Shown: piece by piece, positions 2,733 to 22,900 of the stretch
Layout: the number at the start of each line of letters is the position of its first letter
Position numbering within the stretch: position 1 is the first letter of the stretch
DNA from: Desulfovibrio sp.
Lineage (GTDB): Bacteria; Desulfobacterota; Desulfovibrionia; Desulfovibrionales; Desulfovibrionaceae
NCBI GenBank assembly: GCA_004796465.1
Contig: QZKZ01000089.1
Span: 1-35,617, forward strand
Length of the DNA: 35,617 nt
Direction: 5' to 3'
The notes under the pieces: model-generated
Database searches by the model: none
What the model was told of the DNA's origin: nothing
The model's input: the letters and a program-made list of their open reading frames with translations, nothing else
Position numbers and translations under genes: made by a program

Positions 2733-3335
2733 ATGAGCAGAGCATCCCCCAAAGGACTGCAGGTGCGCGCCGTGTTTGCCTGGGGCCGGACCCTTCCGAT
2801 CTTCCTCCTGTTGGCCCTGGCGCTTGGTGTGGCTGCGTGCTCCAGTGAAGAACCTCAGCAGCAGGAGACAGAAGAAACGAGCCAAGCCCCGGCTTCGGAC
2901 AGGCTGGAAAACATCCCGGCCCTGCCACCGCCTTCCCGCTCCGCCGAGGAGGTCGGCGAGGCAGTCGCCCAAATCTACCTCAACGCCATTGCCGAGCTTG
3001 TAGTGCTCACACAAGGGACGCCTCCAGTCGAGGAGATTGCGCCGCAAGTGGATAACCTTCGCCAAGAGACCATTACCGCGCTTGTCCAGTGGGGTGAAAA
3101 GCGTGAAGAGCTGGACACGCGCGGCAAGGAAACTTGCGACCGTCTCATCCAACTGGCTTTCACCCATATTCCCGAGCAGGACCTAGCCGCGCTCCAAAAC
3201 GCGCAAACAGCGTATCGCGGAGACGCCGAGCTCTCCTCCGCTTTTGAGGACATGTACTTCATCACCCGCTACGCCATATTCGAGTTGCTCAGAGAGCAAG
3301 CGCCCATGGAAGCCGACCGCTTGGGCATCCACTGA
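2733..3335 (+). CDS. Lipoprotein made of an unnamed domain also found at the C-terminus of the kinase-TIR protein
   Basis: 200 residues. A basic N-terminus and hydrophobic stretch (about residues 17-35) end in LGVAAC, a lipobox with Cys36 as the lipid-modified residue, so the product is exported and anchored in a membrane facing the periplasm. A Glu/Gln/Pro-rich tether (37-70) follows. Residues ~72-200 form a mostly helical domain with REELD, GKETCD (Cys135), DAELSS, ELLREQAPMEADRLGI. By eye this aligns along its full length with the last ~130 residues of the protein encoded at 19904-22939 (REDLD, GKDQCD, DPELAS, VLRTELPEEAARFGI). I do not recognise a named family. The start at 2733 gives a proper signal peptide; the longer frame would place ~33 non-signal residues before it. 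It is divergent from ridA. Confidence 0.8.
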   Translation: MSRASPKGLQVRAVFAWGRTLPIFLLLALALGVAACSSEEPQQQETEETSQAPASDRLENIPALPPPSRSAEEVGEAVAQIYLNAIAELVVLTQGTPPVEEIAPQVDNLRQETITALVQWGEKREELDTRGKETCDRLIQLAFTHIPEQDLAALQNAQTAYRGDAELSSAFEDMYFITRYAIFELLREQAPMEADRLGIH

Positions 3336-6892: not shown

Positions 6893-9403
6893 TTACTCGG
6901 CGGGACAAGGTAAGGGAATCTGCAGAGTGAACACGCTGCCCCGGTCCATTTGGGACTGGACTGATACCTTGCCCTGGTAATGGTCCATGACCTTTTTCAC
7001 TATGGCCAGGCCCAAGCCCGTGCCGGGGGTCTTGCCTTCGGGCAGATCCTCGCCGCCCAGGGTATGGAAAGCGTCGAATATGCGCTCTTGCTCCGACTCG
7101 GGGATACCCGGCCCGGTGTCGGAAACTTCAATGCGGAGATAGCCGTTGTTCACGCCCGCCTTGAGCTCCACCTCGCCCTGCGCGGTAAACTTCGCGGCAT
7201 TACTCACCAGGTTCAGGACCACCTCGTGCAGCCTGTCCGGGTCCATGCGCACACCTGGTAAATCTCCTGGCGTGGATGCCTGGAACCTGACCTCGGGCTT
7301 GTCTTGAAAAAACCCCTTGGCTGTTTCCGCCACCTGGCTGAGAATCCCGCTCGCGTCCACCATTTGGTCGCGCCAAACTACCCGTCCCGACTCGATCTTT
7401 TCCAGGTCAAGGAAGTCGTTGATCAGGCGGGTCAGACGCTTGGACTCCTCGGAGACAACATCCAGGTTGAATTTGATACGCTCGATTTCCGCCGTGCCCT
7501 GCCCCGGACCGGACAAGGCCGTGGGCAAGCGGTCCACCAACTTCTGGGAAAGTTTGGCGAACCCCAGAATCGAGGTCAGGGGAGTGCGCAGTTCATGGGA
7601 TACCGAGGAGATGAGCTGGGACTTCACCTTGTCCAATTCCATGAGCCGAACATTGACTTGCTCCAACTCCTGGGCCTTGACCATCAACTCCTGGGTCCTC
7701 TGCCGTACGGTGAACTCCAGGTCCTCGTTGAGCCTGGTCAAGGCCTGCTCGTACATCCTGCGGTCAACGGCTTGGGCAGCTTGGTCGGAAACCGCTTCCA
7801 TGAGTTCCAAGTCTTTTTGGGTGAATTGCTCGGGATTGGCCTGATGCGCCACGCAGACCGCGCCGATGATCCGGTTGCCCACACGCAGGGGAGACGCCAT
7901 GAGCGAAGCTTTGCCGCTGATGTGCTCCACTCCGGGAAAGTCCACAAATGTTCGCAGAAAGGGTATCCCCCCCACCACGGCGTCTTGGGCAACGGAAGCC
8001 ATGAATTCGCGGCATCCGCCGCAGGCGCTGTCTTGTAGTTCTTTGAGGCATGACGAGTACACCAGGCTCAGGCCGGTTTCATCCTTAAGGGCGATGCCAA
8101 AGGTTGTGGCCTGGACCACACCGCCCAGTCCCTCGTGGATTTGCCCGAACAGTTCCTCCAGGGTATCCGAGGCGGCCATGGCCCGGGCGATTCCATACAA
8201 GGTCCGTGTTATCCGTTCGCTGGCCGTGCGCTTGGAAATGTCGATCAGGGAGGCGATGCGGTATTGGGTGGAAGGGATGGTGCTGACTTGGGCGTGAATC
8301 CGCTTGGGTTCCCCTCGCCGATTCATCAACGTGAACTCGAAAATCCTGTCGGAGGAACCCTTGCCCTTTTCCTGTGTCCTTTGTTCGTGCCAGCGGACAA
8401 GGCGCCCTATGTCCTCGGGAGCGACAAAATCGCTCCATTTCTTGAACCCCACCAATTCCCGGCTGGAATATCCCGTCAGATCCACGAAGCGGGAGTTGCA
8501 CTCTCTGATCACCATGTCGTTGCCGAATATGGCCAAGGCGGTTCCCGTGTTTTCAAACAAACTGCGGTAATACTGCTCCCGCTGGGCCAATTCTTCCCTG
8601 GCCCGGGTTTCCAGGGTCACGTCACGCGAGGCCCCGAAAATCAGTTTCCGGCCATGGACCACTTCCAACTCGGCCACGGTATGGAGCATCCTGACCCGGC
8701 CTTCCCCGCTCAGAATCCTGAAATGCACATCCACTGGCCGACCGGTGTTGACCAAGGTTTCCAAAGCCGCGCTCACATCCGACTGGTCATCGGGATGAAT
8801 CCATTTGGCGATGGTCTCGGTTACCAACGGCAGAGGAACGCCCGGCTCCAAGCCGAACAAGGAGTACATGTGGTCGGAAAACGAAAGCCCGCCACCCTGC
8901 AAATCAATCTCAAAGCTGCCTATGCCGCTGAGCGCCTGGGCCTTGCCCATGAAATGGCGGCTGCGCAGATTCTCGTCCAGGGCGAGCCGAGCATCGGTTT
9001 CATCTTGGACCGTGACCACCACGACCCCGTCAGCGAGCGCCACGGAGGTGAAGCGGAACAAGCGAGTTTCACCGCTTCGAATTTTCACCGTCAAGGAGTC
9101 GCTGTTGCCTTCCATGTCACGCGTCCGGCTCCAGCTTTCCTGGGCCTTGGACCGCAACTCGGGTTCCGGACAAAACAGGGATATGCCCGTGGATATATCC
9201 GGAAAGTCGCTGAGATCATACCCGCTCATTTCCGTGAAGGTGGCGTTGACGTACAGGGTTTCCCCTTGGGGGCCAATGGCGATCAACCCCACGGGCAAGT
9301 GTTCAAGCGCGGCGTCCATTACGGATTCGCGCCATCTTTCAGGAGAAAGTCCGGAATCGTGGTGCTGTGTTCCAGAGGATGTGGGCGGCTGGATTTTTTT
9401 CAT
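6893..9403 (-). CDS. Multi-PAS/GAF sensor histidine kinase
   Basis: 836 residues from the ATG at 9403; a GTG at 9439 would add 12 residues and cannot be excluded, as neither has a clear ribosome binding site. Domains in order: PAS (about 30-140, ALEHLPVGLIAIGPQGE), PAS (about 155-270, GIGSFEIDLQGGGLSFSDHMYSLFG), PAS (about 275-395, YYRSLFENTGTALAIFGND), GAF (about 405-560) with a Cys cluster CGGC, a coiled linker, phosphoacceptor helix with His603 (SVSHELRTPLTS) and an ATPase domain (LNLVSNAAKF N box, DTGPGIP G1, GTGLGLAIVKKV G2). No transmembrane segment, so it senses a cytoplasmic signal. The CGGC in the GAF domain could bind a metal or cluster. No receiver domain or neighbouring regulator; divergent from the caspase-like gene. 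Confidence 0.93.
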   Translation of the reverse strand: MKKIQPPTSSGTQHHDSGLSPERWRESVMDAALEHLPVGLIAIGPQGETLYVNATFTEMSGYDLSDFPDISTGISLFCPEPELRSKAQESWSRTRDMEGNSDSLTVKIRSGETRLFRFTSVALADGVVVVTVQDETDARLALDENLRSRHFMGKAQALSGIGSFEIDLQGGGLSFSDHMYSLFGLEPGVPLPLVTETIAKWIHPDDQSDVSAALETLVNTGRPVDVHFRILSGEGRVRMLHTVAELEVVHGRKLIFGASRDVTLETRAREELAQREQYYRSLFENTGTALAIFGNDMVIRECNSRFVDLTGYSSRELVGFKKWSDFVAPEDIGRLVRWHEQRTQEKGKGSSDRIFEFTLMNRRGEPKRIHAQVSTIPSTQYRIASLIDISKRTASERITRTLYGIARAMAASDTLEELFGQIHEGLGGVVQATTFGIALKDETGLSLVYSSCLKELQDSACGGCREFMASVAQDAVVGGIPFLRTFVDFPGVEHISGKASLMASPLRVGNRIIGAVCVAHQANPEQFTQKDLELMEAVSDQAAQAVDRRMYEQALTRLNEDLEFTVRQRTQELMVKAQELEQVNVRLMELDKVKSQLISSVSHELRTPLTSILGFAKLSQKLVDRLPTALSGPGQGTAEIERIKFNLDVVSEESKRLTRLINDFLDLEKIESGRVVWRDQMVDASGILSQVAETAKGFFQDKPEVRFQASTPGDLPGVRMDPDRLHEVVLNLVSNAAKFTAQGEVELKAGVNNGYLRIEVSDTGPGIPESEQERIFDAFHTLGGEDLPEGKTPGTGLGLAIVKKVMDHYQGKVSVQSQMDRGSVFTLQIPLPCPAE

Positions 9404-9585: not shown

Positions 9586-12486
9586 ATGAAAACACGAATG
9601 CTCTCCGCCCTGGCCCTGGCCGCGGCGCTGCTCATTTGCGCCGCCATGCCGGCCCATGCCGGCGAACCGCCTGTGGACCCCGTGCTGCGCATGGAAACGG
9701 GCACCCACTCGGCCATGATCTGGCGCATCGGCATGGACGCCACCGGCACCTACCTGGTCACGGCCTCGGACGACAAGACCGCCCGGGTCTGGGAAGTGGC
9801 CACCGGCAGGCTGCTGCAAACTCTCAGGCCGCCCATAGGCATGGGCCACGAAGGCAAGCTGTATTACGCGGCCATGTCGCCGGACGGCGAATATGTGGCC
9901 ACGGGTGGCTGGACAGGCTACGACTGGGACAGCACCAACAGCCTGTACATTTTCGAGCGATCCTCGGGCCGGATGATCAAACGGATCACTGGCCTGCCGA
10001 TCATGGTCCACATGACCTGGTCCCCGCGCGGCGACTACTTTGCGGCCATGACCGAGGAAGGACTCAAGGTCTTTGACGGCCGCAGCTTTGAGCTCATCTT
10101 TGAGGACATATATTCCCGGCGGGGCAATGGCTGCGATTTCGACAGCCATGGCCGCCTGGTCACGGTCTGCCTGGACGGCTCCATCCGCTTGTACGACAGC
10201 AGCCTGCGGCTCGTTGCCCAGACTTACGGGTACAACGGCCGCGAGCCTTTTTCCGCTGACTTTTCGCCGGACGGCACTTCCATTGCCATTGGCTACCAAG
10301 ATGCGCCCGCCGTGGACGTGATCTCGGGCCGCGACCTCTCTTTCATGCACACCATGGACACCACGGGCGTGGACAATGGCGAGGTCCAATCCGTGCAATG
10401 GTCAGCAGATGGACGAACCCTCTATGCCGGGGGGACCTATCTCCAAGGCGGCGTCACACCCATCCTGCGCTGGGACGGCCCCAACGCCGCCTATCAAGTG
10501 ATCGAAGCCTCGACCCTCACCGTGATCCAAATACTGGCCCTGCCCAACGGCGATATGGTCTACGCGTCCCACGATCCGTCCTGGGGCGTAATCAACGGGT
10601 ACACCAGCGAAATTTCCGTGTTCCAACGCGCCCCCAACGCCGACTTCAGGGACAACTACGACGGCTTTCTCCTCAACCCCGACGGCACGGAAGTGGTGTT
10701 CGGCTACAAACTCTACGGCGCGGAACCCGCCCGTTTCTCCATCCAGGACAGGGAACTGATCCCCGGCCCCTTGACCGAAGGCGAGGGCTTCACGCCCCCG
10801 ATCCTGGAGGCCCCCGGGCTTGTGGTCACCAATTGGAAGCACAGGCCCAACCCGGCGGTCAACGGCCGCCCCATTGAGATGTCCCAGTTTGAAATCTCCA
10901 GGGCCGTGGCGCTCATGCCGGACAGCTCGGGATTCGCCCTGGGAACGGAATACAATGTCCGCTTCTTTGACCGCGAGGGCAACGAACAGTGGTCCGCGCA
11001 GGCCCCGGGCGTATGCTGGGCCGTGAACATCGCGGCCAACGGCAAGGTGCTGGTGGCCGCCTTTGTGGACGGCACCATCCGCTGGTACCGGATTAGTGAC
11101 GGCCAAGAAATGCTGGCACTTTTTCCCCATTCTGACCAGAGGCGTTGGGTCATGTGGACGGAGTCCGGATATTACGACGCCTCGGCCGGAGCCGAAGACA
11201 TGCTGGGCTGGCACATCAACCGGGGCAAAGACCAGGAAGCCGACTTCTTCCCTTTGTCGCGCTTTCGCGAAGTGTATTACCGGCCCGATGTGCTTTCCCA
11301 ACTGCTCGTCACCTTGGACGAGGACTCGGCCCTGCAGATGGCCGACGCGGAACGGGGAGAGGCCAGCCAAGGAGAACACGGTAAGATTCAAGGGTTGCGC
11401 GGCGTACGCGACATGTTGCCGCCCGTGGTGACCATCATTTCCCCCCAAGACGGCAGCCAAGTCTCGGAGACCAGCGTGACCCTGCGCTTTTCCGTGCGCT
11501 CCCCGGGCGGCGAGGACATCACCGGGGTCAGGGTCCTGATCAACGGACGTCCCGAGCCCTCGGCCCGGGGTTTTGAAGTGGCCGGACCCGAGGCGCGCGA
11601 CGGCGTTGACCAGGAAATCACCGTGTCCATACCGCCCGCAGACGTGGAGTTGGGCGTGATCGCGGAAAACGAACACGGCGCGAGCGAACCCGCGCTGATC
11701 AGCGTGGCCTGGGCCGGTGACACGCCCCAGGAAGACTTTGTGATCAAACCCAAGCTCTATGTGCTGGCTGTGGGTGTTTCCGACTACGAGAACAACGACC
11801 TGGATCTGCTGTATGCGGCCAAGGACGCCCAGGACTTCACCACGCTTATGGCCGGCCAGGCAGGCGGCTTGTACCGCGAGGTGGAGACCCACATCCTGCT
11901 TGACGCCGACGCCACCAAGGACAACATCCTGGATGGCCTGGAGTGGATCGAGCGCCAGACCACCCAGCACGACGTGGCCGTTCTCTTTTTGGCAGGGCAC
12001 GGGGTCAATGACTCAGCCGGCGACTATTATTACCTGCCCGCAAACACGGACTTGGACAGGCTCAGGCGCACTGGCCTGCCCTTCACCGAAGTGCGCAAGA
12101 CCTTGTCGTCCCTGGCGGGCAAGGCCCTGTTTTTCGTGGACACCTGCCACTCCGGCAACATCCTGGGCTCCCGGCGCGGCCAGGCCGACATCAACGCCGT
12201 GGTCAACGAGCTGTCCAGCGCGGAGAACGGAGCCGTGGTCTTTTCCTCGTCCACGGGCAACCAATACTCCCTGGAGGATCCGGCTTGGGAGAACGGCGCG
12301 TTCACCCTTGCCCTGGTGGAAGCTCTCTCCGGCTCAGCGGACTTCATGGGCACGGGCAGGATCACCATCAACATGATCGACCTCTACATGTCGGAACGGG
12401 TCAAGGAGCTGACCCGGGGCGAGCAAACGCCCACCACCACCAAGCCCGAAACCGTGCCCGACTTTCCCGTGGCCTTGATCCAGTAA
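9586..12486 (+). CDS. Secreted WD40-like/caspase-like (peptidase C14 type) protein
   Basis: 966 residues. A signal peptide (1-25, MPAHA-GEPP) places the protein outside the cytoplasm. Residues ~35-540 hold WD40-like beta-propeller repeats, e.g. IWRIGMDATGTYLVTASDDK followed by TARVWEVATG, AAMSPDGEYVATGG, ADFSPDGTSIAIGY, SVQWSADGRTLYAGG. Residues ~600-715 look like an immunoglobulin-type beta domain (PPVVTIISPQDGSQV.. GVRVLINGRPEP). The C-terminal ~245 residues are a caspase-like domain: LYVLAVGVSDYEN, ALFLAGHG-type motif with His805 (FLAGHGVND) and catalytic Cys854 in VDTCHSGN, then SSSTGNQYS and GAFTLALVEAL. Both catalytic residues are present, so proteolytic activity is likely. The substrate is unknown. 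Ends before a bidirectional terminator facing the phosphatase gene. Confidence 0.92.
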   Translation: MKTRMLSALALAAALLICAAMPAHAGEPPVDPVLRMETGTHSAMIWRIGMDATGTYLVTASDDKTARVWEVATGRLLQTLRPPIGMGHEGKLYYAAMSPDGEYVATGGWTGYDWDSTNSLYIFERSSGRMIKRITGLPIMVHMTWSPRGDYFAAMTEEGLKVFDGRSFELIFEDIYSRRGNGCDFDSHGRLVTVCLDGSIRLYDSSLRLVAQTYGYNGREPFSADFSPDGTSIAIGYQDAPAVDVISGRDLSFMHTMDTTGVDNGEVQSVQWSADGRTLYAGGTYLQGGVTPILRWDGPNAAYQVIEASTLTVIQILALPNGDMVYASHDPSWGVINGYTSEISVFQRAPNADFRDNYDGFLLNPDGTEVVFGYKLYGAEPARFSIQDRELIPGPLTEGEGFTPPILEAPGLVVTNWKHRPNPAVNGRPIEMSQFEISRAVALMPDSSGFALGTEYNVRFFDREGNEQWSAQAPGVCWAVNIAANGKVLVAAFVDGTIRWYRISDGQEMLALFPHSDQRRWVMWTESGYYDASAGAEDMLGWHINRGKDQEADFFPLSRFREVYYRPDVLSQLLVTLDEDSALQMADAERGEASQGEHGKIQGLRGVRDMLPPVVTIISPQDGSQVSETSVTLRFSVRSPGGEDITGVRVLINGRPEPSARGFEVAGPEARDGVDQEITVSIPPADVELGVIAENEHGASEPALISVAWAGDTPQEDFVIKPKLYVLAVGVSDYENNDLDLLYAAKDAQDFTTLMAGQAGGLYREVETHILLDADATKDNILDGLEWIERQTTQHDVAVLFLAGHGVNDSAGDYYYLPANTDLDRLRRTGLPFTEVRKTLSSLAGKALFFVDTCHSGNILGSRRGQADINAVVNELSSAENGAVVFSSSTGNQYSLEDPAWENGAFTLALVEALSGSADFMGTGRITINMIDLYMSERVKELTRGEQTPTTTKPETVPDFPVALIQ

Positions 12487-19903: not shown

Positions 19904-22900
19904 TTATTCGATGCCGAACCGCGCTGCTTCCTCGGGGAGTTCAGTGCGCAGCACGTCGAAATCCACATACTGGTACAACACGGTGAATTGGGTGATCAGC
20001 GAGGCCAGTTCCGGGTCCGTATCAGCATAAAATTGCCAGGAACGCTGAAAGTCCTCGCGGATGGCTGTGGGCGTGTTCTCCACTTCCTGGCGCAGGATCA
20101 CGTCGCACTGGTCTTTACCGTTGTCGTCAAGGTCTTCGCGCAAGCGGCCCAGTTCGATCATGCGCTCCACGTTCCAGGCTTTGAGTTCGGCCAGGTCCGA
20201 CCAGAGGTGGTCGCTGGGTTCGGGTTTGTCCTCCAGAATGAGGACCACGGCTTCCAAGGCCTCCACGTAAATATCCCCGGCAGCCATGCCGATCTCCACC
20301 GAGGTCAGGGAGTCCGAGGGCAAGGAGCTGGTGGCGTTGTCCGGGGAGGCGTCGCGGCCCAGGGCTTCGCGCGGAGCGGCCTGCGAATCAATCATGGCCA
20401 AGCGGAAGCCCACGGCAAAATCGCGGGTGTCCGGGGGAAAATGGATGCGGTTGGCAAAGCGGACCGTGGAAATGGGGTTGAACCAGCTCCCTCCGCGCAG
20501 CACCCGATCGCTGTCCGGCGATCCCCGGTACAAGGGGTTGCGCTCGGGCAAACCGCTGTTGTCTTCAGCATAGGCGTCCGCAGTCCATTCCCAGACATTG
20601 CCCAGCATGTCGCCCACACCAAATCCGTTTGCCTTGAATGACCCCACTGGTGCGGACGCAATATACTGATCCATGCAGGGTTCCGGCTCCCAGGCCAAAG
20701 ACAGGCCCGTGGCGCTGCTCATGTCGTAGACCGAGGCCCACCGGCAGGCGTCTTCCCGGTCCGCTTCCCACGGAGTCGCCCCGGCTTCCCCGGCCCTGGC
20801 CGCATATTCCCACTGGGCCTCGGTGGGCAGTGTGAAGTCCAGGCTGGGGTAAGCCTGCGACAACCACTGGGCATAGCGCACGGCGTCCTCGTAACTCACC
20901 TTGACCGCGGGTTGCTCAGGCTCGTTTAAGGCGGCCTCACGGTAGGAGCCGCTGTCGTGGCCGGAGTCGGCAACCGCGTACTCGGCATTGCTCGTCTCGT
21001 ACCGGGCCAACCAAAAGCCGTCGATGCACACATGGTGGGGCGTTTCATCCTCATTGCGGCCCGCTTCCTGAACCGGGCTGCCCATGGTGAAACAGCCACC
21101 GGGTATCCAGACAAACTCCATGGAGGTATTGGCTTGCTCCACCCAGGTGTCGCCCGCCTTGGGCGCGCTACGGGGCAAGGAATCCCCGGGCATAGGCGTG
21201 GAAAACGCGGGCTGTTCCCCTTCTCCGGATTCCGGCTCTTGCCCTGCCTCTTGGGTTCCGTTCACAACGCCGACCTGTTCGACTTGAACAGGTTCTTGTT
21301 CCGGTGTTCCTTCACCTGAAAACATCTCCGGCCCCAGAAAGTACGCTACTCCTACGAGAGCAAATATTGCCGTTGCAAGAACCAAAAGCCAGGGCCGGGG
21401 GGACCTAGGCGTGGACTCGTTCTCCAGGGTGAAGGGCGTGCGTTCCGAGGATGGCGCGGAAGGTTCCCTGCTGGGCGCGGTAGGTTCCGGCTCGGGCTCC
21501 GGTACGGGTTCCAGCGACGGTTCCGGAACTGGTTCCGGCGATGGTTCTGGAGCTGGGGCGGGCAGATCTTCGGGAATGCGGTCGGGAGCCACGAATCGCA
21601 ACAGTTCCAAAAGGCCCGCTGGGGTCAGGGGCACGACCTGGTGGTTCCTGAGGCCCACGGGCAAGTCCTCAATGGCCATGCCCTGGGCCAGTACCGTGAC
21701 CAGGTTGCCTTGCTTGCGGCCCGAGCGCTTCTCGTTGAGGAACATGCCCCACTCGGCCTCGACCCAGGACGACTCCACGTTCTCGCGGCTGGAGCCCACC
21801 ACCACGAAATGTTCGCAGTCCTCCACGGCTTGGTCAATGACCCGCCGGTATTCCGCCTCGCTCACCTCGGGGATGGCCAACTCGCTTAAAAAGGCCCTGA
21901 TCCCACGGCTTTCCAAAAAGTCATACACCTGCCGGGCATGGGCAAGGTCCGCGCTCTTTTTACACAGAAACACTTCCCAGCCCGAGGCCCCGGCGTGGCT
22001 CAGCAGCGCCGCCTCAAAGGCTCCGATGTCCTGGTAACGGTCCTGGGGCCGTACGGCCAGAGCCTTTTCCAAGGCCGAGCACAAGGCCTCGCCCGCTCCA
22101 ACATCCTTACTGCTACAGGCAAGCTCGTCGTCCTCGCGTCTGCCGGGCGCTTCGGGCGGCGCATGGCCCGTGAGCAAGTAGTACAGGGTCGCGCCCGAGG
22201 CGTAGACATCGCTCCAGGGGCCGATCTCGCCATGGCTGTGGTACTGTTCATAGGGCGAAAATCCGGGGGTGAGGAACACGGACAGCCCCCGGCTGTGCTC
22301 GCCCACTGCCTGGCGCGCCGCGCCGAAATCGAGCAGGATGGGCGCGCCGTCCCTGGTCAGATAGATGTTGTGGGGTTTGACGTCGCGGTGCAGGAAACCC
22401 TGGGCGTGGACCTGTTTGAGACCCATCAGCACAGGCAAGATCACGTCCACGGCCCGCCTTTCCGGCAAGCGGCCCCCGGCCCGGCGCACGTGCTCGACCA
22501 GGTTCTCGCCCTCGTAATAATCCATGACCAAGTAGGCCGTGCTGTTGGCTTCAAAGAAATCCAGCACGCGCACCACGTTGGGATGGCGGAACTTGGCCAG
22601 GGTGCGGGCCTCGGCCAGGAATTTTTTCAGGCCGTACTCAAAGGATGCTCCGTCCTCGGAGCTGTGGGGAACCACAGTGGACCTGTCCGCGTCGCGGCCC
22701 GCAGCCTCCCGGGGCAAATACTCCTTCACGGCCACGGCCACTTGGAGCACCGTGTCCCAGGCCAGGTAGGTCAGGCCGAAACCACCGGGGCGGCCCAGCA
22801 GACGGCCGGTGAGATATTTGTTGTTCAGCAGGGTGCCGTAGGGCAGGGCGAGGGGGCCGGGACCCGCGGAAGCATCAAATCCGCAGGCCGGACATACGTC

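Follow-up and report, generated by a model that had tools for sequence, protein, structure and literature searches.

A predicted helical extracytoplasmic domain shared by a small lipoprotein and the C-terminus of a kinase-TIR receptor in Desulfovibrio sp.

The window analyzed here, that is, the whole stretch of 35,617 nucleotides of contig QZKZ01000089.1 from a Desulfovibrio sp. (assembly GCA_004796465.1, a draft genome of 434 contigs), carries a gene for a small predicted lipoprotein and, on the opposite strand, a gene for a large receptor that joins a Ser/Thr kinase, a TIR domain and an ectodomain in one polypeptide (Table 1). The lipoprotein has GVAAC at residues 32–36, read from the sequence as a lipobox ending in Cys as in bacterial lipoproteins, and its Cys is followed by a Ser and a flexible E/Q-rich linker. 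Translation may begin at GTG 2763 instead of ATG 2733, since AAAGGA lies at Shine-Dalgarno distance from this codon and the signal peptide would then have a normal length of 25 residues. We assigned signal peptides and the predicted membrane helix by eye rather than with a prediction program, and gene calls beyond the window are simple longest-ORF calls. The same window also encodes an exported protein (9586–12486, plus strand) that combines WD40 repeats and a bacterial Ig-like segment with a caspase of the EACC1-associated Peptidase_C14 type at its C-terminus; caspase-like proteins would not usually be expected in the periplasm.

Table 1. Features of the lipoprotein and receptor genes in the window.
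Feature	Position	Strand	Basis and remarks
Domain lipoprotein gene	2733..3335	+	200 aa from ATG 2733; 190 aa if GTG 2763
AAAGGA, possible Shine-Dalgarno for GTG 2763	2751..2756	+	read from sequence; inference
Lipobox VAAC	2829..2840	+	read from sequence; lipidated Cys would be residue 36
Shared helical domain in lipoprotein	2931..3332	+	sequence comparison; AlphaFold pLDDT 93.6
Receptor gene, 1011 aa	19904..22939	-	zinc ribbon, Ser/Thr kinase, TIR, TM helix, FGE-like, shared helical domain
Protein kinase domain	22004..22837	-	Pfam PF00069; VAVK, HRD and DFG motifs intact
TIR_2 domain, WVEAE motif	21623..21973	-	Pfam PF13676, E=1e-11; candidate catalytic Glu
Single predicted membrane helix, PWLLVLATAIFALVGVAYFLG, residues 516-536	21332..21394	-	read from sequence
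FGE-sulfatase (C-type-lectin fold) domain	20396..21118	-	Pfam PF03781, E=2e-48; active-site Cys pair absent
Shared helical domain, extreme C-terminus of receptor	19907..20314	-	sequence comparison; pLDDT about 96

The receptor opens with a Cys-rich ribbon followed by a kinase whose nearest solved relative is PpkA of Serratia (PDB 5hnv, E=3e-54); VAVKEYLP, LHRDVKPHN and LDFGAAR align to PpkA and supply the catalytic Lys, HRD and DFG of Hanks-type kinases. Its TIR domain contains SWVEAEW, also kept in a paralogue of the same genome described below, in which the Glu of the WxxxE region is a candidate catalytic residue. The FGE domain contains RGGSWFNPISTVRFANRI, and in the alignment no Cys stands at the positions that hold the cysteine pair, after RGGSW, in solved FGEs. 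Because these active-site cysteines of true FGEs are missing, the domain probably serves in binding, as has been suggested for the FGE/C-type-lectin domains of bacterial conflict systems (PMC10907252). Assuming the usual topology, the kinase and TIR domains would face the cytoplasm and the FGE and shared helical domains the periplasm. A literature search for this same receptor architecture found no match.

It had been claimed in the earlier note that the lipoprotein consists of the same unnamed domain as the receptor C-terminus, and this was confirmed. Residues 63–199 of the lipoprotein match residues 872–1010 of the receptor in one collinear BLASTP alignment (28% identity, 50% positives, 2 gaps, E=3e-16); the motifs listed earlier are all present in both copies, and the coordinates given in the note are correct. 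The profile comparison proposed there also gave significant similarity in two forms. A profile of the two copies retrieves two further copies from the same genome (E=2e-23 and 2e-22), and an HMM built exclusively from members in other genomes, which avoids circularity (Z=1e6), gives E=4.3e-32 for the lipoprotein and E=5.9e-26 for the receptor, with the best of 1,000 shuffled controls above 1e3. Since this HMM detects both copies and the controls lie that far away, the similarity is homology.

Scanning of genome contigs and whole-genome searches brought together 23 members of the domain family. Four of them belong to the source genome (the receptor, the lipoprotein of the window and two adjacent lipoprotein genes on contig C72), and the other 287 genomes of the taxonomic family have none, leaving the source genome as one in 288. 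Two copies occur in one genome of another class of the same phylum, three across two genomes in the Myxococcota sample, and one in each of 14 of the 42 genomes of Fermentibacterota (Hyd24-12, Aegiribacteria), where matches confined to the signal-peptide half (L045–L049) were left out of the count. The two adjacent lipoprotein genes of the source genome lie at the end of contig C72 (L009 4267–5393, joined to the end of L010). An apparent fifth copy in the source genome, on contig C409, was discarded: its last 67 bases are an overlap with the end of contig C72, and the two contigs are probably contiguous. Weak matches in genomes G159 and G623 and on contigs C127 and C399 (E=8e-4 to 0.04) were not counted either; those of G159 and C127 are a long helical membrane protein and an out-of-frame stretch. 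Searches of phages, plasmids and viral contigs for the domain gave no match, and an origin from a phage or plasmid was rejected.

With the exception of the receptor copy, which forms part of an ectodomain, the members (22 of 23) are small stand-alone proteins of about 170–200 residues with a signal peptide and, as judged by eye, mostly with a lipobox. The strongest conservation falls at the C-terminus, QYA-F-LLRxQxPEEAARLGI, and PxEAxRLG(I/L) is the end of the chain, or lies at most two residues from it, in all members but the divergent L061. AlphaFold2, run on the alignment of 23 sequences, predicts with confidence a domain made up entirely of helices (mean pLDDT 93.6, pTM 0.85), and the receptor copy was modelled with the same helices. 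When the 23 members were scanned singly against Pfam and NCBIfam, no family rose above its curated cut-off and only sub-threshold chance matches appeared. Foldseek found no significant match in the PDB (at best E=0.28; none of the 50 matches listed exceeded a TM-score of 0.44) and no significant relative among viral models. Matches to BAG-domain and Bcl-2-like folds were not significant by Foldseek, and a CpxP-like or V-ATPase-like similarity from a PDB sequence search (E at least 0.03) was unconvincing. The suggestion that this is an undescribed extracytoplasmic domain family therefore held on both counts, since 23 members match no named family or fold and every copy is predicted to be exported or to lie C-terminal to a membrane helix. 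The segment common to the two proteins is thus predicted to be a compact, all-helical domain acting beyond the inner membrane; its usual form is a protein of its own, tethered by lipid or soluble in the periplasm.

The relation of the domain to the receptor is made clearer by a second kinase-TIR-TM-FGE receptor of the same genome (contig C287, L070 3748–6213, minus strand), which lacks the domain. Pfam domain calls give it the same N-terminal ribbon, kinase, TIR, membrane helix and FGE; it is 47–51% identical to the receptor of the window (47% over 884 columns) and ends at the linker position just before the shared domain. Since the paralogue stops at the domain boundary, the domain is removable and, from this comparison, is an accessory module gained or lost at the predicted periplasmic end of the receptor. 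Two further kinases of the genome begin with the same zinc ribbon: one (contig C127, L091 1849–4080, plus strand) has a C-terminal helical region between two membrane helices and the other (contig C60, L092 1303–2655, plus strand) ends in a CD225 (interferon-induced transmembrane protein) segment. These C-terminal parts are unrelated, which indicates that C-terminal exchange is normal in this kinase group. Upstream of the C127 kinase lies a divergent ORF resembling an FHA-domain protein, and the C287 paralogue adjoins an AraC-type regulator gene and a gene for an exported Cys-rich, PAN/apple-like protein (7292–8146).

The surroundings of the stand-alone genes vary. Among the Fermentibacterota loci (L050–L057), one subgroup has the domain gene behind thiM/thiE-like genes and another has it behind a glycosyltransferase gene; its neighbors thus change within a single phylum. 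In genome G463, one copy follows an alpha-2-macroglobulin gene and pbpC, with 118 bp separating it from pbpC (L023 6115–9120), and a second copy lies downstream of murD with murE, murF and mraY nearby (L024 5927–9131). This arrangement hints that the domain may be linked to the cell wall; as the neighbors are not conserved overall, the hint comes from this single genome.

Several known systems resemble parts of this arrangement. Like the Hanks-type receptor kinases (PknS of Xanthomonas, PpkA of Serratia and the PASTA kinases), the receptor has an intact kinase; as read from the sequence, this kinase would be cytoplasmic and combined with one membrane helix and a C-terminal periplasmic sensor. 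Unlike them, it has a TIR domain between the kinase and the membrane, and an FGE domain and a new helical domain in place of TPR, vWA or PASTA domains. The FGE/C-type-lectin sensor proteins of bacterial conflict systems, which have kinase, TIR or STAND domains (PMC10907252, PMC7159879), likewise have an FGE-like domain joined to such domains, whereas here the FGE domain would face the periplasm and precedes a further domain; no diversity-generating retroelement was noticed. QseG, CpxP and NlpE are lipid-anchored or periplasmic proteins that share a compartment with a kinase ectodomain, as the lipoprotein would; in contrast to them, the lipoprotein has no sequence family match and no linkage to a kinase gene.

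The reading that we favor, tentatively and at somewhat less than an even chance, is that the domain has a binding partner in the envelope and that its fusion lets the kinase-TIR receptor read that partner or be tethered to it. The partner would most likely be a protein or a peptidoglycan-associated structure, and the conserved C-terminal face would be the likely contact. The fusion would thus add a sensing or tethering module to the receptor: a change at the partner would be relayed by the FGE domain and the membrane helix and so reach the kinase and the TIR domain. The lipoprotein would be a paralogue recognizing the same kind of partner. An influence of the periplasmic region on activity has been described for the receptor kinase PknS (PMC13147305). 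When the FGE and helical domains were modelled together, the FGE half had low confidence and the interface was unreadable. It is somewhat unlikely, by comparison, that the fusion is neutral or purely structural, the product of a duplicated lipoprotein-type gene that came to lie in frame behind the receptor gene and whose domain folds but has no signalling role or serves for anchoring only. A neutral fusion would fit its restriction to one genome (1 of 288 in the taxonomic family), the long branch of the kinase copy in the tree and the existence of the C287 paralogue without the domain. However, the kinase copy retains nearly all invariant positions, including the C-terminal PEEAARFGI, as well as the predicted fold, and their preservation despite strong divergence elsewhere suggests that selection went on once the two parts had been joined.

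The lipoprotein and the receptor might also form a regulatory pair, in which binding between the two domains or competition for a ligand switches the kinase-TIR protein on or off, in the manner of QseG-QseE or CpxP-CpxA. Such a pair is possible and, in our estimate, unlikely. Both copies are homologous, predicted to be extracytoplasmic and in one genome, and binding of sensor kinases by accessory lipoproteins or periplasmic proteins has been reported (PMC6075780, PMC4160245). On the other hand, the two genes are separated by 16.5 kb and lie on different strands, the two lipoproteins on contig C72 are equally good candidate partners, and every other genome with the domain carries it without a kinase fusion; nor is the domain gene in other genomes linked to a kinase gene, as would be looked for in a lipoprotein regulator of a kinase. 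The copies are moreover as divergent as their 28% identity implies and are not clear sisters: the tree does not group them reliably, and a sister grouping is not rejected (p-AU 0.47). Synteny, co-occurrence and phylogeny thus give the pair no support. A wider version, in which the copies on lipid anchors and on receptors bind each other or share a ligand and a lipoprotein of the outer envelope controls the receptor across the periplasm in an immune-like or envelope-damage response, appears improbable. The disulfide between the copies through the Cys of GKxxCD, raised in the earlier note, did not survive the family alignment and is very hard to credit. The Cys is present in both copies of the window and in two Myxococcota copies, but it is missing in 19 of 23 members, among them both other copies of the source genome; the column holds V (10), A (6), C (4) and I (3), i.e., it is otherwise small and hydrophobic, the pattern of a packed helix face, which makes the bond unlikely.

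The domain family described here has no fold relative that could be detected, and its distribution over at least three phyla is patchy. To our knowledge, the inputs of membrane-bound kinase-TIR proteins are not known. The source genome offers a natural experimental pair in this respect, with two kinase-TIR-FGE receptors that are about half identical, one with the domain and one without it. If the domain is a sensor, it would give a way of finding the signal to which membrane-bound proteins of the kinase-TIR type respond.
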